From Chloroflexota bacterium (GTDB lineage: Bacteria; Chloroflexota; Dehalococcoidia; UBA2247; RBG-13-53-26), in NCBI GenBank assembly GCA_017885485.1, contig JAFNFZ010000126.1, positions 1 to 12,385 of the forward strand: a stretch of DNA of 12,385 nt, read 5' to 3'. Position numbers and translations under genes: made by a program. The notes beneath the pieces were generated by a model. That model searched no databases and had not been told where the DNA came from. It saw only the letters and a program-made list of their open reading frames with translations. Numbering within the stretch: position 1 is the first letter of the stretch; each line of letters opens with the position of its first letter. Of the stretch, positions 581-11,796 are shown piece by piece.

Positions 581-880
581 TTGGGATCAACCGCGATTAT
601 TATCACCGCCGTGATTATTGCCGCCCTAGTTGTTCCCTTGATTTTCGTGCTGGCAAGGAATTCAGCGGGCATCTTGCAGCTTTCCCACCTCAAATGCATG
701 GAATGCGGGACAGAGTTCGATTATGCGTGGATTCCCCTTGTATCGTTCACTTCGCTGCGCTTCGGCCCGTGGCGCTTCTTCAGGTGTCCCGTTTGCAGGA
801 GATTCTCAGTATTCAACATCTGGGATACAAGAGTTGATCCCGAAACACATCATTGTCCCGTCAAGATCGGACCCAGCTAG
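581..880 (+). CDS. Small membrane-anchored zinc-ribbon protein
   Basis: A 99-residue protein of unknown function. Residues about 5-25 form one strongly hydrophobic segment (AIIITAVIIAALVVPLIFVL), an N-terminal membrane anchor. The soluble part has two Cys pairs, C39-x2-C42 (CMEC) and C69-x2-C72 (CPVC), arranged like a zinc ribbon with about 26 residues between the knuckles. Zinc binding is inferred from this spacing. The start is TTG at 581: the frame is closed by a TGA at 551, no ATG or GTG lies between, and GGGAG sits 7 nt upstream. A promoter-like pair lies just ahead. The gene ends tail-to-tail with the methyltransferase on the other strand, the two stop codons sharing CTAG. No partner is evident; such proteins are usually annotated as hypothetical. 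Confidence 0.72.
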   Translation: MGSTAIIITAVIIAALVVPLIFVLARNSAGILQLSHLKCMECGTEFDYAWIPLVSFTSLRFGPWRFFRCPVCRRFSVFNIWDTRVDPETHHCPVKIGPS

Positions 881-1737
881 GCCAGCAGGAATCTCAGGTG
901 AGCCACCTTCACGACCCCAAGCAGATCACAGACATCCATCAAGACCCGAGTCCTTATCCTCCATTTGGGATTGCGTTCTGTCCTGGCGTAAAGCGGGAAC
1001 CATTCGACCAGTCTGATTCTGTCTGACCACTTCGGAATCTGCTTGGTTGGGTTGCCTAAGCCGAAGGAGAATTCTACACCAGTGACACCACGCTTTCTGA
1101 AGCGTCTGTTCATCACTCTGTTGCCGAGCCCCGAAGGGGCATCAAACACCAATTGGCCACCGGGGAACCGTTCGGACATCGCCCTACACAGATCAGAGAC
1201 CTTGTCCTCTCGGAAGTAGTTGAAGAGGCCCCCTGAGAAGAAGAGGACACCCCTATCCGGGGCGAACCTCACATCGTTGAACCAACTGTGGTCAAGGACT
1301 GATTTGGATATGCAACTGCTGCGGGGAGAATCAGGAATCAGTTTCCTACGGTATTCGATTGCCTCTGGCAGATCCAGATCATGCCAATGGATTCTGCCGT
1401 TGTCGACACGGGAGAAGGTAGTATCTAGTCCGCACCCGATGTTGACCACGGTGGCCTCCGGATACTCTTTCAGATATTCGCCTATTGCATGATCAAAGGT
1501 TCGAGCCCTGATCACTAGGCTGAGTCCTAGGAATTCGTCAATGAATTCTCGCATCAAGTCAAATCGAGCCTTTGCTTCGGGCTCTGGATGCATTGCCAGC
1601 AACGCTTCGAAGATTCGAAGGCCGTCGTGATCCGTTAGCAGATCGGGATACCGTTGACTGAAAGTCGCCCGCGCCCATAACGGACCAACCATTGTTGACA
1701 GGATCGTTATTCGCGTCGCTTCGCTTCCCTGGCTCAT
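877..1737 (-). CDS. Class I SAM-dependent methyltransferase, LCM/TcmP-like family
   Basis: A 286-residue cytosolic protein resembling the leucine carboxyl methyltransferase (LCM/PPM1) and TcmP-like O-methyltransferase family. Motif I is VVNIGCGLDTTF at residues 97-108, with the SAM-binding GCGLD loop. The acidic strand-2 motif follows as WHDLDLPEAIEYRR (residues 118-131), typical of this family. Further on, GVLFFSGGLFNYF matches the motif IV region, where many relatives have an acidic 'AEGLLMYL'-type segment. The length matches family members. It probably methylates a carboxylate or hydroxyl group of a small molecule, but the substrate cannot be read from sequence. The ATG is preceded by GGGGAG 9 nt upstream. 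The gene stands alone on this strand and overlaps the zinc-ribbon gene by 4 bp at the 3' ends. Confidence 0.88.
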   Translation of the reverse strand: MSQGSEATRITILSTMVGPLWARATFSQRYPDLLTDHDGLRIFEALLAMHPEPEAKARFDLMREFIDEFLGLSLVIRARTFDHAIGEYLKEYPEATVVNIGCGLDTTFSRVDNGRIHWHDLDLPEAIEYRRKLIPDSPRSSCISKSVLDHSWFNDVRFAPDRGVLFFSGGLFNYFREDKVSDLCRAMSERFPGGQLVFDAPSGLGNRVMNRRFRKRGVTGVEFSFGLGNPTKQIPKWSDRIRLVEWFPLYARTERNPKWRIRTRVLMDVCDLLGVVKVAHLRFLLA

Positions 1738-2282: not shown

Positions 2283-5200
2283 ATGCTGATAAGGATACCG
2301 CTCCGCACTGCACTTACGAAGACCGTCGCTGTTCTCGTCTTGCTTGCCATCTTGATCAGCACTGCACCGCACCTTCAGCTGGTTCGGGCTGCCGAGAGAA
2401 CCATCAGCCTCGTTAGCCCTAACGGAGGGGAATTGCTGTTGGGGGGCGGCGATCAGTACGTCGAGTGGATCGCGTCTGAGCCCGGTGGTTACGTCAGTGT
2501 GCTCTACTCTTTGGACAGTGGCGCCAGCTATTCATTGGTGGAATGCGTTTCCAATCCTTTGGCCGTCGGCGAAGGCAATGCTTCTTACCGATGGCAGGTG
2601 CCGAGTGTGAGTTCTACCCTATGCAGAGTGAGAGTCGTCTGGATAAGCAGCTGTACCGGTATGGCGACCGTCTATGCAGCCGACTCGAGTGATGCCGACT
2701 TCAGCATAACGCCGGTCCAGGTGTTTTTCTCCAAGGACTGGGACATCACCACGCTTTTTGGCTACGATTTCGGCGAGATCAACCTCACGCTGACAACCGA
2801 TGTCGTGGAGCTTCAGCCCTCAGCTTCAGCCGATGGCGAACTCGTGGCGTTCAGCCGAAAAGGAGTGCGACTCCCGGGCGGAGGGGTGACGGGCACGTAT
2901 GAGATCTGGCTCATGGATTCCCAAGGCGCGACACAGACACAGGTGACCCAGAACGGAGTGGATGATGTCGATCCCGCGCTCTATTCGGGTAGCACCGCCT
3001 TCGATTGGAAGGTGGTTTTCTCACGGTTCGATGCTGATGGGAGATACTGCCACCTTTATGTGGCCGAGATGAAGAGAGAGTGGAATCCGGTGCTGGGCAC
3101 ATTCCGTTTCTTCATCCAAGAAACACAACTGACCTCGGGCAACCATCAGGATCGCGAGCCCTGCTTCTCACCCGACGGCACCCAAGTGGTATTCTCCTCC
3201 AACCGCAGCGGCAATTTCCAGCTGTACACGCTCAGCATTGGCGACCCGGAGGACGTGGTGCGTTCTTTGCCTGGTGTGCCACCGTACACCGAAAGGAACC
3301 AGAGAACGCCCGATTGGTCTCCTGACGGACAGTGGTTCGCCTGTTCTATGAGCTGGGGAAGTGAGTCTGAGATCTTCGTAGCGGACTCGTCAGGGCCGGT
3401 CAATACCAGGCGTGTCTTCCAGGTCACTGACACGGCGGGTTCACCTCGCGCGGTCTCTCCCAGCTGGGGCCCCAACTCTGTTGAAGTGGCCTACATCAAA
3501 AAGATCGCCGGTGCGGATTCATATCGCGAGGAACTCTGGTCCCTCCGCTTGGATATCCAGGGCACTATCAGTGCGTTTGGCGACAGAAAGCTGAACGACC
3601 TGGGTGTGGTGGGCGGGATGGAGCCCTACGAAGGGTCAAAAGGAGATCCCTGCTGGAGACGGCTGGCAGGTCTGCGCATCCCGGACGTCGAGTTGGAGGG
3701 CAGAGTCAGCTATGACTTCAGCACTCCACTGGACGTCTTTGGCGGTACAGCTCCATACACCTGGACGCTGCTAGACATTCTGCCTTCTGGTCTAGCTCTA
3801 TCCTCAGACGGATTGGTCTCTGGTACGCCGACCCAGGCAGTCAAGGAACATGAGTTCCAAGTCAAAGCGGAGGATGGCTCTGGACTCTCGGGACAGAAGC
3901 GCTTGACAGTCACCATCAGGCCCAGGAACGACCTCGCGTTGCTGACGATAGGGCGTTTTCTTCCGCCAGCGTTGGAAGGAGTAGCCTACACTGCCAACGT
4001 CGTGTTCATAGGAGGGTTGTCTCCATACGAGGTAGTCATTGAATCAGCCACCACCGGACAGAGTCTGCCCAATAACATGAACACAGCCTACAACATACTC
4101 GGGAATCAGATCATAGTTGCGATTTCATCTGACGAGAGCGGCTTCGCCAGCGGGCGGTATAGGCTGAAGGTGGAGGTGACCGATTCCTTCGGCGATACTG
4201 TGGCCGGCTTCTTTGACCTCAACGTACTCAGCATAGACTGGCTTATGGCCGACCCTCTTGGAGACAAGCTCACGGTTGTTGTCCGGGGCTTCCCAGAAGA
4301 CGTTGGGACAGAAGAGTTCGTGGAGGCAGTCTCAATTGAAGCTGAAAGCATCGAAGCACTCCTCCCGATCAGCGGAGTCTCTCGGATCGCGGCCTGGACC
4401 AATATCACGGTTGACTATCCGGATGACTTCTCCGCCTGGAGCAGCCTCTTCGAACCCGGAGTCAGCACCATTGAGGGAAGACTGAAGCTTAGAGTTGATC
4501 TGGATGGTCAGAAGAACACAGTGAGCATCGACTTCCCGCTCCACCGCTACATGTTTCGCAGGGACAGAGGGTTCAGGTTCGGGAACTTCTCTTCTGAGCG
4601 GATTCAATTTGAGAGCTTCGCCCACTTCTTCGGCTTTGAAGAGACAGTATTCTGGCTTTTTGGAGAGCCTATCCCTCGCCTGATCCCCTGGGCCATCTGG
4701 AACGCCGCGCCCATCGGTCGTGGTGGCAACTGTACCGGGATGTCCGTTTCGGCCGGTAATATCGCCGACGATCTCATCAGGACACACCTGGAGCAAGACC
4801 CCAACCTGCCGCATGCGGCTGACAGATTCGACAGCCTCCTCATACCCAACGAAATCCTCGACGACTACATTCGTGAACGTCAGTATTGGGTCATGTCGAT
4901 GGAGTTCATCAGGGATCTGGCTTTCTTCATCGGCGATCATCCGGGGAGGTATTCCAACGCAGTGCTGAGCAAGGTCAGGGAGTGGGAACCGGGAGAACCT
5001 CCCTACCTCATCGCCATGTTCCAGGAGGGAAAGGCTCATACTGTGACGGCCTATGCTGTGGAGGACCTGCCGGATGGTCGATTGGCCATCCGGGTGTACG
5101 ATTCCAACAAGCCCTTCGAGTACAGGGAGACATCCGACGATTCCAGCGCTATATACGTTGAACCGCGTTTGGACAATTCATGGTCCTACAAGATTGGTGA

Positions 5201-6164
5201 GAGGACCACCGACAGCGGCACTATCGAGGACGTATGGTGGCATGACGACTTCATTGTAGCCATTCGTTCGGACGTCCTCCGCGGCGACCCCAATCTTCCT
5301 GGGTTATTGAATGTTCCGGAATTGGCCGCGATTGGATTCACTCTCGGCATGCTGTACAGCATCGGCAGTGCGGATCTAGTCCAGGCCACTGACGGCGAGG
5401 GCCACCAGATGCTGACTGATGAAGGCAGTGTCAGCATCAACGCAGAAAACGGACTGCCCTATTGGATACCCATCCCCATACCGGCCGGCGAATCCGATTC
5501 CTCTGCCAGAGTCTACTATATCCCTATGGAGAGGTCTTACGCATTGAGGCTGTCCGGCATCGCGTCTGGTGACTATGACCTATCATATATGCCCTTGGAT
5601 GGCATGTTGATCAGCCTCAAGGTCGATACTTCGGAAGGCTCGGTGGACAGCGTGAGTATTGACCCAGCCGCGCTCTCCACCGGAATGGCCGCGAGCGGCT
5701 CCAAGCAGTTCAGCTACAGGATGGCGTGGGGGTCAGAGCAGGAGGACAAAGCGTTCACAGCAAGTGACATGGGGGCCGATCAGACCGGCGCCATCAGAAT
5801 AACCGCCATGGCCGACGGTAACGGGGTCAAGGTCTACAACGGTGGCAACGCGACATCGTACACGCTCCTGGTGGAGTACCTGCGTCAGGACCAGAAGGCG
5901 CAAAGCCTGAAGAGCAGTCGGATCAGGATAGGCAGCGGCGAGACACAGATTCTGACGTGCACCGCATGGGAAGATCTCAGGGGGAACGGCATCCAGATGC
6001 AGAGGGACGAGGATAGCGACGGGACTTGGGAGGAGACAGTAACCATCCACCATCAGAGCGGCGGGGAAGGCCTTTGGGTCTGGATCCTGGCGGCCCTGGG
6101 CGTAGCCGGTGTTATGGCAGGGGGATTCGTGTTCTGGAGAAAGCGGAAGGCTAAGCCAGCCTAG
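2283..6164 (+). CDS. Large exported, C-terminally anchored protein: PNGGE domain, PD40 propeller, Ig-like domains and papain-like domain
   Basis: A 1293-residue protein. A signal peptide occupies residues 1 to about 36 (basic start, hydrophobic core, cleavage near VRAA). Residues about 38-145 start with the common SPNGGE extracellular beta-domain. Residues about 180-405 carry PD40/TolB-type propeller blades, e.g. FSPDGTQVVFSSNRSGNFQLY and WSPDGQWFACS. Residues about 462-545 are a putative-Ig (He_PIG) domain with GGTAPYTWTL and GLVSGTPTQ, followed by a second, weaker copy to about 650. Residues about 790-1000 look like a papain-like domain: C817 in GGNCTGMS, H919 in KAHTVTAYAV, and D940/N942 in VYDSNKP. 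The C-terminus has a DEDSDG acidic loop, then one membrane helix (about 1263-1285) and a WRKRK stop-transfer tail. The bulk should therefore face outside. The ATG has AAGGAGG 4 nt upstream. Catalytic activity is inferred, not shown; substrate unknown. Confidence 0.85.
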   Translation: MLIRIPLRTALTKTVAVLVLLAILISTAPHLQLVRAAERTISLVSPNGGELLLGGGDQYVEWIASEPGGYVSVLYSLDSGASYSLVECVSNPLAVGEGNASYRWQVPSVSSTLCRVRVVWISSCTGMATVYAADSSDADFSITPVQVFFSKDWDITTLFGYDFGEINLTLTTDVVELQPSASADGELVAFSRKGVRLPGGGVTGTYEIWLMDSQGATQTQVTQNGVDDVDPALYSGSTAFDWKVVFSRFDADGRYCHLYVAEMKREWNPVLGTFRFFIQETQLTSGNHQDREPCFSPDGTQVVFSSNRSGNFQLYTLSIGDPEDVVRSLPGVPPYTERNQRTPDWSPDGQWFACSMSWGSESEIFVADSSGPVNTRRVFQVTDTAGSPRAVSPSWGPNSVEVAYIKKIAGADSYREELWSLRLDIQGTISAFGDRKLNDLGVVGGMEPYEGSKGDPCWRRLAGLRIPDVELEGRVSYDFSTPLDVFGGTAPYTWTLLDILPSGLALSSDGLVSGTPTQAVKEHEFQVKAEDGSGLSGQKRLTVTIRPRNDLALLTIGRFLPPALEGVAYTANVVFIGGLSPYEVVIESATTGQSLPNNMNTAYNILGNQIIVAISSDESGFASGRYRLKVEVTDSFGDTVAGFFDLNVLSIDWLMADPLGDKLTVVVRGFPEDVGTEEFVEAVSIEAESIEALLPISGVSRIAAWTNITVDYPDDFSAWSSLFEPGVSTIEGRLKLRVDLDGQKNTVSIDFPLHRYMFRRDRGFRFGNFSSERIQFESFAHFFGFEETVFWLFGEPIPRLIPWAIWNAAPIGRGGNCTGMSVSAGNIADDLIRTHLEQDPNLPHAADRFDSLLIPNEILDDYIRERQYWVMSMEFIRDLAFFIGDHPGRYSNAVLSKVREWEPGEPPYLIAMFQEGKAHTVTAYAVEDLPDGRLAIRVYDSNKPFEYRETSDDSSAIYVEPRLDNSWSYKIGERTTDSGTIEDVWWHDDFIVAIRSDVLRGDPNLPGLLNVPELAAIGFTLGMLYSIGSADLVQATDGEGHQMLTDEGSVSINAENGLPYWIPIPIPAGESDSSARVYYIPMERSYALRLSGIASGDYDLSYMPLDGMLISLKVDTSEGSVDSVSIDPAALSTGMAASGSKQFSYRMAWGSEQEDKAFTASDMGADQTGAIRITAMADGNGVKVYNGGNATSYTLLVEYLRQDQKAQSLKSSRIRIGSGETQILTCTAWEDLRGNGIQMQRDEDSDGTWEETVTIHHQSGGEGLWVWILAALGVAGVMAGGFVFWRKRKAKPA

Positions 6165-6284: not shown

Positions 6285-6344
6285 ACAGGCTGAATGCCAG
6301 CTCGAAGCGTGCAGTTCTTGATATCGTACAGTATAGCCCACCAT
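6285..6344 (+). repeat. 60-bp dispersed intergenic repeat, copy 2
   Basis: Second copy of the repeat, 120 bp after the stop of the exported-protein gene and in the same orientation as the others. The core is 6298-6344, 41/47 identical to copy 3. The terminal CAGTATAGCCCACCAT block is unchanged. GATATC is shared with copy 3 only. Confidence 0.85.
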
Positions 6345-6543: not shown

Positions 6544-6588
6544 CATGCCGATAGATATCTGACTAACATGGTGCATGGTTGTGCGCTC

Positions 6589-6599: not shown

Positions 6600-7019
6600 G
6601 TGGGCACCATCTTCATCAGTCACTCCGAGAAGGACCTCGCTACTGTCAACGAGATAATCCGGGGGTTAGAGCAGGCCGGGTACCGCACTTGGCACTTTGA
6701 GCGGGACATTCTGCCCGGTACTAGCTACCTCATTCAGATCACCGAAGCTGTAGCCCAGTGTGATGCCGTTGTCCTAGTCATATCCTCCAACTCCATTTCC
6801 TCGGACCAGACCACCAAAGAAGTCGTCGGTGCTTTCGAGAGTCGCAAGCCGTTCTTCCCCATTCTCCTGGATATGACGCCGCCGCAACTCAAGGAGAGTC
6901 AACCGGAATGGGCGTCACGCCTTGGGCGGTACTGCCATGATCTGCGTGGGTTTCAGAGGGATCGGCGACTGTGTAGCTCAGGTCATCGAGGGACTGAAAG
7001 CTCGCGGTCTGTACCCTGA
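6600..7019 (+). CDS. TIR domain protein; probable N-terminal part of a frameshifted TIR-cyclase-STAND-TPR protein
   Basis: From the GTG at 6600 the product is 139 residues, starting MGTIFISHSEKDLATVN, a classic TIR_2 opening (first strand plus SHSEKD box 1). Residues 26-36 (AGYRTWHFERD) match the second strand and BB-loop region. VVLVISSNSISSDQTTKEV (residues 57-75) contains E74, where NAD-hydrolysing TIR domains have their catalytic glutamate. Strand D is FFPILLDM. TIR character ends near residue 108 (EWASRLG): after base 6924 this frame gives an Arg/Ser/Cys-rich tail to the stop at 7019. The other frame continues with a fitting last TIR strand and helix. So the gene most likely reads on into the cyclase gene after a +1 change. 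NADase or scaffold function is inferred from the family. Confidence 0.8.
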   Translation: MGTIFISHSEKDLATVNEIIRGLEQAGYRTWHFERDILPGTSYLIQITEAVAQCDAVVLVISSNSISSDQTTKEVVGAFESRKPFFPILLDMTPPQLKESQPEWASRLGRYCHDLRGFQRDRRLCSSGHRGTESSRSVP

Positions 7020-10000
7020 AGCAGAGGGCAGGAGGCCCTCCGCCCGGAAGGCGGTGACTACCACACCCGGGGAGCCTCTCCGCAAAGACCTCAGGGAGAA
7101 GATACTCTCGTCGCGGGGCAGCATGGAGGGTGAGCGCAAGCAGGTGACTGTCCTGTTTGCCGATATCGCCGGGTTCACCTCGATATCTGAGGACATGGAC
7201 CCGGAGCAGGCCCGGGACTTCGTCAATCAGTGCCTGGTGATCATGGCCGACGAAGTATACCGCTATGAAGGCACTGTGGCTCAGTTTCTGGGTGACGGAG
7301 TCATGGCCCTCTTCGGCGCTCCCATTGCCCACGAAGATGATCCGCAGCGGGCCCTTCATGCAGCCCTGGGAATCAGGGAGCGGCTGAGGGATCATGCCAA
7401 CAAGCTCAAACAGCAAGGCATTGACTTCGATATCCATATTGGGGTCAACACTGGCCTGGTGGTGGTGGGGCGGATCGGAGATGACCTTTCTATGGATTAC
7501 ACGGCTGTAGGGGACACGGTCAACCTGGCTTCACGGATGCAGAGCACCGCCGGGCCGGGAGCCATCCGGGTGGCCGAAAGCACCCACCGCCTGACGGCGG
7601 GCTATTTCGACTTTCAGCCGCTAGGCGAAGTCGAAGTCAAAGGGAAGAAGCAGCCAGTCAAGGCCTATGAGCTCTTGCGGGCCGGCCGGGCCCGGACCAG
7701 AATGGGCATGTCGGTAGCCAGAGGACTCACCCCGTTCGTGGGACGCGAAAGCGAACTGCAGAAGTTGATGAAATGCTATGAGCGGGCCAAGAAAGGCCAG
7801 GGCCAGGTGGTGGGCATAGTGGGAGAACCAGGCGTGGGCAAATCCCGGCTGGTTCTCCAGATGAAAGGGGGCATTCCCAGAGATGAGTGCACCTGCCTGC
7901 AAGGGGAGTGCCTCCACTATGGCGAGGCCTCTCCCTACTTGCCGGTGCTGGATATATTAAGGTCTTACTTTGGCCTGGAGGAGGGCGAGCTGGAGTCGGT
8001 GGCCAAGACGAAGATGAGCGAGAAGGTCCGACGACTGGATGAGAGCTTGGAAAGCCTCCTGCCGCCTTTGCACGATATCCTGTCTCTGAAAGTGGAGGAC
8101 GAGCAGTATCTCAAACTAGAGTTACAGAAGAAGAGGGAGAGGACTTTCGAGGCTATCCGGAACCTCTGGACCCAAGAGAGCCAGAGCCGCCCTCTCATTG
8201 TGATCGTAGAAGACCTTCACTGGATGGACAAGACCTCAGAGGAGTTCCTGGACCATCTCATCGGCCGCCTGCCAGGTGCCCGCCTGTTGCTGCTACTGCT
8301 CTACCGGCCCCAATACACGCACTCCTGGGGCAGCAAGACCTATTACAGCCAGATCTCGTTGGACGAGTTCCCTCCGGACACCAGCACCGAAATGGTACAT
8401 GCCTTTTTCCGGGAAGGCCAGGCGGCCCCAGACCTAGGCGATCTCATTCTGAAGAAGGCAGCCGGCAATGCCCTGTTCATGGAGGAATTGACCCGGGCCC
8501 TTCTGGACAGGGGTTACCTCCGCAGAAGCGACGGCGAGTATGCACTGGCGGTAGACCCGAGTGAGATACATGTTCCAGAGACCATTCAGGGCATCATCGG
8601 AGCCAGGATTGATGGTCTGGAGGAGAACATCAAACAGACAATCCAGGTAGCTTCGGTAATTGGTCGGGAGTTTCCGTTGGCTATGCTCCAGAAGGTGTTG
8701 GCTGCGGAGCAGGGACTTGAAGAACACCTCAGCGCGCTTCAGGGGCTGGAGTTGGTCTATGAGAAGAGCACCTTCCCCAAGACAGAATATGTATTCAAGC
8801 ACGCCCTCACCCATGACGTGGCCTACAATAGCCTGCTGCTGAAGAGACGGAAGGAGATCCACCAGAGGATAGGAAAGGGCATTGAGGAGCTCTACCCCGA
8901 GCGTCTGGAGGAGTTCTACGAGATGCTGGCCCATCACTTTGTCAAGAGTAATGATCTGGACAAGGCTTACCAGTACCTCAAGTTGTCTGGGGACAAAGCA
9001 GCACGCAGTTGCTCCAATTCGGAAGCTAATCGCTTCTATAGAGAGGCTATCAAAGTGCTTGACGAGCTGCCCCGCAGTGAACAGAACAGAAGAAGTGGAG
9101 TGGAAGTCCGTCTTTCATTGGCACTACCTATGATGAGCTATCCCGACGAATGCTTGAGAATCCTTGAAGATGGTGTGGCAATTGCCAAAGAACTGGGCGA
9201 CAGTCTAAGTCTGGCCAAGCTATACAGTTGGATAGGCATGTATCATTCGCTCAGCGGGAGACCGCTCTTGGGAATACAGTACTCTGAGGAAAGCTTCAGA
9301 GAAGCAGAGAGGGTCAAGGCCGTCGATATCATGGCACCAAACGCCTTCCACTTGTGTTCCTCCTACTTCTTCACTGGCGAGAATTGTCCCAAGATGATTG
9401 AATTGGCGTCAAAGACGATCGCTCTATTGGAAGAAACACAAAGACAATCTGAGTCCTTTGGCACAATGAATCCTTATGCCACGCTGCATTCGTACTATGG
9501 GACAGCCATGGACATGCTGGGGCGTTTCCAGGAAGGGCAAACTGCTCACGAGAAGGCCCTTGGCTTTGCCCTCGGATTGAAGGATCTGAACGTGATGACC
9601 TTGGTGGAAAACAACTTCGGCTGGTGTCTGCTTCTTCAAAAGGGCGATGCCGCGAAAGCTGCAGATCACCTAAGGGAATGCGTCAGGTACGGAGAAGAGG
9701 CAAGCCTGTTGGGCATTCTCGGAGCTGGCCTGACTGGACTAGGCTGGTCTCACTATATTCTGGGACAACTCGAGGATGCTGAGAAACAGATCAGTCAGGG
9801 GCTGAAGATACAGAAGGATAGCGGGATGACCTACTTGATGTCATTGCACCATTGTGCAATGAGCCTGCTCCACTACGAGCTAGGCGATATCGAGAAGGCT
9901 CACATCTGTGCGCAGGAAGCTGTGACATCATCTCAGAGTAACAACGAGAAATTCATGGAAGGGTTGTCGTGGGCTTTGTTGGGGAGAACGCTGGGCAGGC

Positions 10001-10245
10001 TGAATAGGTCGGAGTATGCTGCGGCGAAAGAGCACGTTATGCGAGGGATCGGTATCCTAGATGAGCGAGGACTCAGGCCGCCTGCGGCCCAGGCGAATTT
10101 CTATCTGGGAGAACTCCATTCCGGGGCCGATCAGAGAGACCAAGCTACAAGAGCGCTTGAGAAGGCTCAAACCATGTTCCAAGAGATGGGTATGGACTAT
10201 TGGCTGGCCAGGGCGGAGGCTGCGTTGGCTACGCTGCAATCATGA
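6922..10245 (+). CDS. Class III nucleotide cyclase-STAND/AAA ATPase-TPR signalling protein
   Basis: The open frame is 1107 codons from TTG 6922, but its real start is uncertain. Codons 1-33 complete the TIR fold of the preceding frame, so the protein probably begins at 6600; ATG 7123 (residue 68) would give a TIR-less form. Residues 68-255 are a class III cyclase domain: metal aspartates D81 (FADIAGF) and D125 (FLGDGVMALFGAP), T194 at the purine site, N201 and R205 in GDTVNLASR. Q121 replaces the base-selecting lysine. Residues about 272-560 are a STAND-like AAA_16 ATPase: FVGRESEL, Walker A GEPGVGKS (301-308), Walker B LIVIVEDLHWMD. FKHALTHDVAYNSLL (about 627) then leads into TPR-like helical repeats to the end, a likely protein-binding sensor. 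The layout matches large bacterial cyclase-AAA-TPR regulators. Repeat copy 3 follows 26 nt after the stop. Confidence 0.88.
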   Translation: MGGTAMICVGFRGIGDCVAQVIEGLKARGLYPEAEGRRPSARKAVTTTPGEPLRKDLREKILSSRGSMEGERKQVTVLFADIAGFTSISEDMDPEQARDFVNQCLVIMADEVYRYEGTVAQFLGDGVMALFGAPIAHEDDPQRALHAALGIRERLRDHANKLKQQGIDFDIHIGVNTGLVVVGRIGDDLSMDYTAVGDTVNLASRMQSTAGPGAIRVAESTHRLTAGYFDFQPLGEVEVKGKKQPVKAYELLRAGRARTRMGMSVARGLTPFVGRESELQKLMKCYERAKKGQGQVVGIVGEPGVGKSRLVLQMKGGIPRDECTCLQGECLHYGEASPYLPVLDILRSYFGLEEGELESVAKTKMSEKVRRLDESLESLLPPLHDILSLKVEDEQYLKLELQKKRERTFEAIRNLWTQESQSRPLIVIVEDLHWMDKTSEEFLDHLIGRLPGARLLLLLLYRPQYTHSWGSKTYYSQISLDEFPPDTSTEMVHAFFREGQAAPDLGDLILKKAAGNALFMEELTRALLDRGYLRRSDGEYALAVDPSEIHVPETIQGIIGARIDGLEENIKQTIQVASVIGREFPLAMLQKVLAAEQGLEEHLSALQGLELVYEKSTFPKTEYVFKHALTHDVAYNSLLLKRRKEIHQRIGKGIEELYPERLEEFYEMLAHHFVKSNDLDKAYQYLKLSGDKAARSCSNSEANRFYREAIKVLDELPRSEQNRRSGVEVRLSLALPMMSYPDECLRILEDGVAIAKELGDSLSLAKLYSWIGMYHSLSGRPLLGIQYSEESFREAERVKAVDIMAPNAFHLCSSYFFTGENCPKMIELASKTIALLEETQRQSESFGTMNPYATLHSYYGTAMDMLGRFQEGQTAHEKALGFALGLKDLNVMTLVENNFGWCLLLQKGDAAKAADHLRECVRYGEEASLLGILGAGLTGLGWSHYILGQLEDAEKQISQGLKIQKDSGMTYLMSLHHCAMSLLHYELGDIEKAHICAQEAVTSSQSNNEKFMEGLSWALLGRTLGRLNRSEYAAAKEHVMRGIGILDERGLRPPAAQANFYLGELHSGADQRDQATRALEKAQTMFQEMGMDYWLARAEAALATLQS

Positions 10246-11409: not shown

Positions 11410-11796
11410 TCAGGCGCCGACCAAGCACTCATCTGTATGCAGGCCTTTCTCAACGGCCTCCATGAGCTGGCCCATATCAAAGGGTTTTTGAATGTAGGCA
11501 CACAGCTTGGCATCAGCCACCTTGCCTCTATCGGGATCCAGAACCGACATCACAATCATCGGCACCTTCTGAGTCAACTCCAGTTTCTTCAGCATTTCGG
11601 CCAGAAACCAGCCATCACAGTCAGGTAGCCTGATGTCAACCAGCATGAGGTCCGGCTGCTCTTCGAACAAATACTTGACTGCACTGGCTCCGCTGTGGAA
11701 GACCTTGACGCTGTGCCCTCTCCTGCAAAGGCACACGTCTATGGTCTTGGCAAGGAGTGAGTCATCATCTACAACCAGGATTCTCTTTCTGCTCAT
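11410..11796 (-). CDS. Stand-alone response regulator (receiver domain only)
   Basis: A 128-residue protein made of one REC domain. All key residues are visible: acidic pocket D10-D12 (ILVVDDDS), phospho-acceptor D54 in LMLVDIRLPDCDG, the switch Ser S84 (IVMSVLD) and K104 in YIQKPF. It ends soon after helix 5 with no DNA-binding or enzymatic output domain, so it should signal through protein contacts, in the manner of CheY/Spo0F-type regulators, after phosphorylation by a histidine kinase encoded elsewhere. The ATG is preceded by AAGGAA 7 nt upstream. It lies 33 bp downstream of the PLDc_N-like gene on the same strand, so the two are probably co-transcribed. No kinase is present in the window. 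Confidence 0.93.
   Translation of the reverse strand: MSRKRILVVDDDSLLAKTIDVCLCRRGHSVKVFHSGASAVKYLFEEQPDLMLVDIRLPDCDGWFLAEMLKKLELTQKVPMIVMSVLDPDRGKVADAKLCAYIQKPFDMGQLMEAVEKGLHTDECLVGA

Follow-up and report, generated by a model that had tools for sequence, protein, structure and literature searches.

Does the plus strand of contig JAFNFZ010000126.1 (Chloroflexota bacterium, assembly GCA_017885485.1) carry two neighboring genes, or a single gene whose reading frame has been broken? The stretch analyzed here, hereafter the window, is this whole contig of 12,385 nt (C126 in our numbering), which belongs to a 63% complete draft genome (2.03 Mb, 353 contigs). An open reading frame (ORF) encoding a TIR domain is followed by a second ORF, one base out of frame with the first, which encodes a class III nucleotide cyclase, an AAA_16 ATPase and a TPR region, and whose 1107 codons are free of in-frame stops. 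The first-pass annotation, made from the letters of the window, had described exactly this arrangement, and it was borne out by the Pfam matches (TIR_2, Guanylate_cyc, AAA_16 and TPR). We conclude, with a probability of roughly 0.86, that the locus is one gene of a continuous TIR-cyclase-AAA_16-TPR family, split by a register change at 6910–6912, for which a local assembly error is most likely and a recent private mutation almost as likely, and which is not conserved recoding.

The relatives were collected by a protein search with the cyclase frame, and the best 120 of 7992 scored candidates were kept (the window's own protein, P0001, and 119 relatives). Among the 119 listed relatives, 43 matched the window's TIR at E 1e-5 and are termed TIR-bearing (P0020 matched only from residue 76); the other 76 gave no such match. 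The TIR-frame codon at 6909–6911 (W104) directly abutted the cyclase-frame codon at 6913–6915 (residue 105) in all 43 TIR-bearing relatives. At residues 105–107 these relatives carried R (39/43), H (24/43) and A (41/43), which is the R-H-A of the window's cyclase frame, whereas the A-S-R of its TIR frame was found at the respective positions in none of them. Because the register is exact, with no intervening residue in 43/43, the frame changes at the G run 6910–6912 and not at 6924–6926. The annotated one-base change is therefore real in the given sequence, but it had been placed 14 bases downstream of the true site. Similarly, the TIR frame had been called convincing up to EWASRLG; since the relatives match R-H-A and never A-S-R, this is true only as far as EW, and ASRLG is already out of frame.

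The comparison of the two pieces with their closest relatives was consistent with this position. P0002 and P0003 shared 82.6–83.5% identity with the TIR-frame piece across 109 residues; for the part of the cyclase frame that starts at 6913, the figure was 71–72% across 96 residues. The third-position G+C fell from 0.70 before the site to 0.51 in the out-of-register tail. For both the TIR piece and the linker, P0002 and P0003 ranked in the top three of the relatives listed (P0018 led the linker by a point), and for the cyclase and the ATPase they were the top two. As the same relatives are closest on either side, nothing points to a chimera at the junction. The proposal that the cyclase frame supplies the last TIR strand and helix was confirmed by the alignments to relatives and by the elements predicted after residue 104 in a model of an intact relative (L159, described below). 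The full TIR-frame ORF spans 6579/6600–7019, with a GTG start at 6600 and a TTG alternative at 6579; the GTG agrees with the M(G/S)xIFISH opening of the relatives, and AAGGGGGTGA lies immediately 5' of it. The window contains no N bases, and no second frame break was seen in the 3.6-kb gene. The coordinates of the features are collected in Table 1.

Table 1. Coordinates of the interrupted gene and its parts, with the evidence for each.
Feature	Position	Strand	Evidence
TIR piece in its own frame, residues 1–104	6600..6911	+	TIR_2 5.9e-21 (Pfam); alignment of 43 relatives up to W104
TIR glutamate E74, candidate catalytic residue	6819..6821	+	E in 40/42 TIR-bearing relatives aligned from the start
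Short G run, site of the +1 register change	6910..6912	+	0 residues between flanking codons in 43/43 relatives
Out-of-register 3' part of the TIR frame, up to its TGA (7017–7019)	6912..7019	+	residues 105–107 matched by 0/43 relatives
Last TIR strand and helix (predicted), in the cyclase frame	6913..7002	+	aligns to residues 105–134 of relatives; L159 model
Cyclase-AAA_16-TPR frame, 1107 aa	6922..10245	+	ORF list and Pfam; in-frame ATG 6937, ATG 7123
Class III nucleotide cyclase domain	7135..7671	+	Guanylate_cyc 3.4e-30 (Pfam)
AAA_16 / STAND-type NTPase	7732..8292	+	AAA_16 5.1e-24 (Pfam); Walker A Lys 7840, Walker B Asp 8212
Putative sensor region (TPR), decoupled from the preceding part of the chain	8940..10242	+	TPR families (Pfam); identity drop vs P0002

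The fused form was continuous in all 43 TIR-bearing listed relatives. The earlier claim of a single TIR-cyclase-ATPase-TPR protein, interrupted in the window, was thus upheld by the homologue alignment, and the contrary arrangement, with TIR and cyclase always in separate genes, was not the one found. A continuous one-frame gene was also present in a genome of the same family (L159, on the 9605-base contig G003:C49; JAFGCL010000214.1, Dehalococcoidia bacterium). Separate genes were searched for at 64 loci (55 from a genome scan, with flanks of up to 4 kb, and 9 others, with flanks of up to 1.5 kb) with four TIR queries at E 1e-4, and no separate TIR gene was found beside a TIR-less relative within these flanks; the queries matched only L012 and L159 (same contig), where the TIR is in frame with the cyclase. 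A survey of 393 genomes of the class, in which a match to P0003 at 1e-100 or better was scored for a maximum of two candidates per genome, gave at least 38 places in 27 genomes. Only G003:C49 matched P0003 from residue 2, the window matched from residue 103, and the other 36 matched from past residue 140; thus, judged from these matches, TIR forms look rare in the class. Genes of the cyclase-ATPase-TPR type were many and clustered, with 23 places in G395 (L172; contigs C17, C39 and C50) and 17 in the single-chromosome record G393, and a tandem pair of such genes was observed on G134:C22.

The isolation of the frame change points first to a local error in the draft assembly, with a recent private mutation close behind in probability. 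An assembly or sequence error is given about an even chance; assembly errors are reported to account for many of the apparent pseudogenes of bacterial assemblies (PMC11017572). Only somewhat less probable is a genuine recent frameshift mutation, by which the TIR output would be lost and the gene would be becoming a pseudogene or be kept as a TIR-less cyclase-ATPase-TPR gene. No general indel problem was seen in the draft, and forms without a window-like TIR are common (76/119 listed relatives), one of which, P0033, starts at the equivalent of ATG 7123. Broken copies also occur elsewhere: one G393 copy is divided between a pair of matches that overlap in different frames, further copies in that record have short open frames, and L164 is without about 27 residues and changes frame with no N. 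However, G393 and L164 may have sequence errors of their own, and the broken form in the window is known from a single assembly only (the P0001 cluster consists of a single protein from a single contig). The lack of a second frame break in 3.6 kb counts against a long-decayed gene. The residues missing from L164, a Deltaproteobacteria relative, at about 3616 surround the motif FKHALTQEVAY, and an NN break in contig C285 of the draft lies near the same motif.

The base-level quality of the draft was assessed by a scan for split genes, in which 53 contigs of the draft (G000) and the window (359 kb, of which 131 kb was covered) were compared with ORFs taken from 1.0 Mb of G002, a genome of the same genus; 7 of the 60 contigs requested were all N and were dropped. 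Four places were flagged in G000, all of which were antisense frames (L050, L051 and L085) or a gene boundary (L069), so that no genuine base-level split was found. The reverse comparison flagged two places in G002 (L108 and L131), which correspond to gene pairs already flagged in G000. When single-base deletions were planted, 77 of 150 were recovered, and 67 of 91 when they lay at least 180 nt inside a match; under a looser tolerance, the sites gained in G000 all had N nearby, and G002 gained no site. As the scan detects about half of the planted deletions, an indel rate of up to roughly one per 20 kb is compatible with its result by our estimate. A hidden Markov model of coding frame was also tried for detecting frameshifts and was dropped, as neither of the two settings tried picked up the known shift in the window.

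Several results weigh against the preferred explanation. The absence of genuine splits in the 131 kb covered lowers the prior for a sequence error. Two-base NN joins are scattered in the draft (C78, L005, 257–258; C285, L041, 3916–3917 and 7212–7213; and on further contigs), and the reading frame of a sibling gene breaks at C78 257–258 and C285 3916–3917; these breaks were rejected as proof of base errors because they sit on NN joins and therefore make no statement on the base accuracy of the draft. When the L159 model was searched with Foldseek, the best 50 matches were cyclases or cyclase-bearing proteins, with no TIR structure among them. Finally, the two metal Asp positions and the Asn of the cyclase vary among the relatives, so some family members may be inactive.

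A functional split, into a small TIR protein and a cyclase-ATPase-TPR protein, is improbable. Starts that could serve the second protein do exist in frame downstream (e.g., at 6937, 7123 and 7144), but the TIR fragment would be without its last strand and helix, the 64 loci gave no TIR gene beside a TIR-less relative within the limited flanks and at the E 1e-4 threshold, and the 98-base overlap from 6922 would be an unusual coupling. Less probable still is programmed +1 frameshifting that joins both frames in the cell. The shift is formally possible, since the cyclase frame, open from 6877 on, overlaps the TIR frame as far as the stop of the latter at 7017–7019, but it is unneeded in the 43 TIR-bearing relatives and in L159, and a frame change was conserved in 0/43. 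Moreover, the register requires the shift at TGG-GCG, where there is no stop or slippery run, and CCC-TGA at 7014–7019, which we take to be a shift-prone motif, lies about 100 bases too far downstream, with intervening codons that match the relatives in the cyclase frame only. Recoding, which the first-pass annotation had listed as a possible cause, was therefore set aside, as was phase variation by slippage, the least probable of all, for although the site is a G run, it is only 3 bases long in a gene with 74 G runs of at least 3 and with no single-base run longer than 5.

Under the preferred reading of one interrupted gene, the locus is a family member by descent and is broken as sequenced, the TIR not being continuous with the cyclase chain. 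The structure of the junction was modeled on L159 (residues 1–360), which gave a modest model from 43 sequences (mean pLDDT 69, pTM 0.44). A strand at residues 84–90 was placed before the junction, and short strand pieces at 114–117 and a helix at 120–134 after it; thus, according to this model, the TIR fragment as sequenced is predicted to be without its last strand and helix and to end in an unrelated tail. E74, to which we assign a presumed catalytic role by analogy with known TIR NADases, is present in the window, but the TIR fold is completed only in the other frame. By sequence, the TIR piece matched MyD88 chains (4.5e-5) and the bacterial TIR protein 3h16 (0.0026). The downstream frame resembles natural TIR-less members, such as P0033, whose first residue matches ATG 7123.

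The intact relatives (five members scanned) are single chains of about 1215 residues with the order TIR, class III cyclase, AAA_16 and TPR, and the window holds all four domain types in this order by Pfam. Residue roles were assigned as in known class III cyclases and TIR NADases. The window has the two metal Asp (7162 and 7294), the Asn (7522) and the Arg (7534) expected of a class III adenylate cyclase, and across the 43 TIR-bearing relatives these positions were kept as Me1 Asp in 42, Me2 Asp in 41, Asn in 40 and Arg in 43. In place of the Lys-Asp substrate pair, the window has Gln-Asp (Gln 7282 and Asp 7513); the substrate specificity of the cyclase is therefore uncertain. At the Lys position, 40 of the 43 TIR-bearing relatives had Gln and the other 3 had His; the 76 listed relatives without a TIR match had Lys in 39 cases and Gln in 37. 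An adaptation from Lys to Gln linked to the TIR was considered and found unsupported: all Lys forms belong to a single clade that lacks TIR matches, so that the Lys/Gln difference is not TIR-linked.

The Walker A Lys was found in 43/43 and the Walker B Asp in 42/43 of the TIR-bearing relatives, and the P-loop NTPase with both motifs and an adjoining repeat sensor has the features by which a STAND protein is recognized. The domain matches and alignments show the domain order, its continuity in relatives and the retention of the putative catalytic positions in most members. On the family tree (a quick search with SH-aLRT support only), the presence of the TIR changed at least 6 times, and among the members looked at its place was taken by zinc ribbons, a long N-terminus (P0048 and P0088) or nothing. 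Residues 1–470 of P0048 and P0088 appeared nitrilase-like by eye; the Pfam run on P0048 gave no match there.

The TPR region behaved differently from the rest of the chain. Identity between the window gene and P0002 fell from 83% to 35% at about 8938, and the nearest neighbor by cyclase-ATPase was also the nearest by TPR in 33 of the 120 rows. In 191 pairs, similarity was 80% or more over the first part and under 55% over the TPR, and the change points of 170 of them lay at residues 660–709 of the cyclase-frame piece (about 8890–9039). When only rows on contigs of at least 10 kb were used (44/120), 30 of the 103 pairs whose first part was at least 80% alike showed the decoupling. As faster divergence of the TPR explains much of this decoupling, exchange is best shown where the TPR is more alike than the rest; a difference of at least 5 points in this direction was found in 11 of 7140 pairs, several of which lie on short contigs and may be assembly chimeras. 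For adjacent copies on one contig (G134:C22), the first parts agreed at 86% and the TPR parts at 49%; for L261 and L263 of G393, the corresponding values were 79% and 16%. In a TPR tree of 44 hand-picked rows of the 120, the window's TPR grouped with P0004, P0012, P0031 and P0014 (99% SH-aLRT). A tree constrained to hold the window, P0002 and P0003 together was not worse (p-AU 0.55), and with P0025 added the constraint was rejected (p-AU 1e-33). For the window gene itself, these comparisons are no more than suggestive of a TPR exchange; across the family, the putative sensors look exchanged or fast-diverging, a decoupling of the sensor from the conserved catalytic part that resembles the evolution of immune receptors.

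Its domains make the intact family look like STAND-type receptors that have a pair of enzymatic outputs. Class III cyclases work as dimers. In the mechanism that we propose, the TPR array would sense a ligand, the ATPase would switch to an ATP-bound, oligomerizing state, oligomerization would pair the cyclase domains and pack the TIR domains, and a cyclic nucleotide would be made while NAD+ is cleaved. If both enzymes work, a single receptor would drain NAD+ while making a cyclic nucleotide, and such dual-output signaling would be directly testable. A fuller proposal, namely that the intact relatives form an uncharacterized bacterial NLR-like receptor family with a dual output on one chain (NAD cleavage by the TIR, and a class III cyclase whose substrate pair is the non-standard Gln-Asp and whose product may not be cAMP) and a TPR sensor exchanged as a cassette, is put forward tentatively and is on balance unlikely; a family of this kind might serve as a repertoire of sensors for phage or stress. 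For the window itself, the frame change should not be taken as a mechanism, and the locus should be annotated as one interrupted TIR-cyclase-AAA-TPR gene.

Around the gene, a promoter scan gave a single weak site at 6318 (9/12 matches, 0.3 expected), and an Rfam search gave no match. A 1293-aa protein encoded at 2283–6164 carries a PD40/TolB-like propeller and He_PIG domains and, judged by eye, a signal peptide and a C-terminal membrane helix. The region is flanked by an LCM-type methyltransferase (877–1737, minus strand) and a single-domain response regulator (11410–11796, minus strand).

Among known systems, the class III cyclases CyaB (3r5g), CyaC (1wc1) and Cya2 (2w01) share the cyclase fold and most catalytic residues with the family (by Foldseek; 3r5g also by sequence, 6.6e-33), but Gln here replaces the Lys of adenylate cyclases, which belongs to the substrate pair, and the chain partners differ. 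The cyclase domain is also related to that of soluble adenylyl cyclase ADCY10 (4clf, 5.1e-8), a protein with the order cyclase, NTPase and TPR-like region, two cyclase domains and no known TIR. The TOMM kinase/cyclase fusion model TIGR03903 has the same cyclase-ATPase-TPR part (1.1e-106 over residues 173–1154 of P0002; 5.5e-103 for the window); however, the scores of 358 bits for P0002 and 345.8 bits for the window lie far below the membership cut-off of 705.75, and the chain here carries an N-terminal TIR. In Pycsar (PycC and PycTIR), too, a cyclase of class III type and a TIR NADase act as partners, and the PADLOC model of PycC matched at 6.7e-24, but there, as described in PMC11224242, two proteins are linked by a cNMP-binding domain, whereas here there is a single chain. 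No Pfam match to a cNMP-binding domain was found in the window or in the five scanned relatives, which, with the single chain of the relatives, places the gene outside Pycsar. The literature that was searched, a corpus with few subscription papers, held in its accessible portions no account of a TIR and a cyclase on one STAND-type chain. A close parallel in architecture is with the STAND/NLR-like receptors of bacterial conflict systems and the fungal incompatibility receptors, which in the available sections of PMC7159879, PMC8195603 and PMC10907252 have the same order of effector, NTPase switch and repeat sensor and use a TIR or a cNMP cyclase as the nucleotide-signal module; the TIR and the cyclase are alternatives there, whereas both effectors stand on one chain here.

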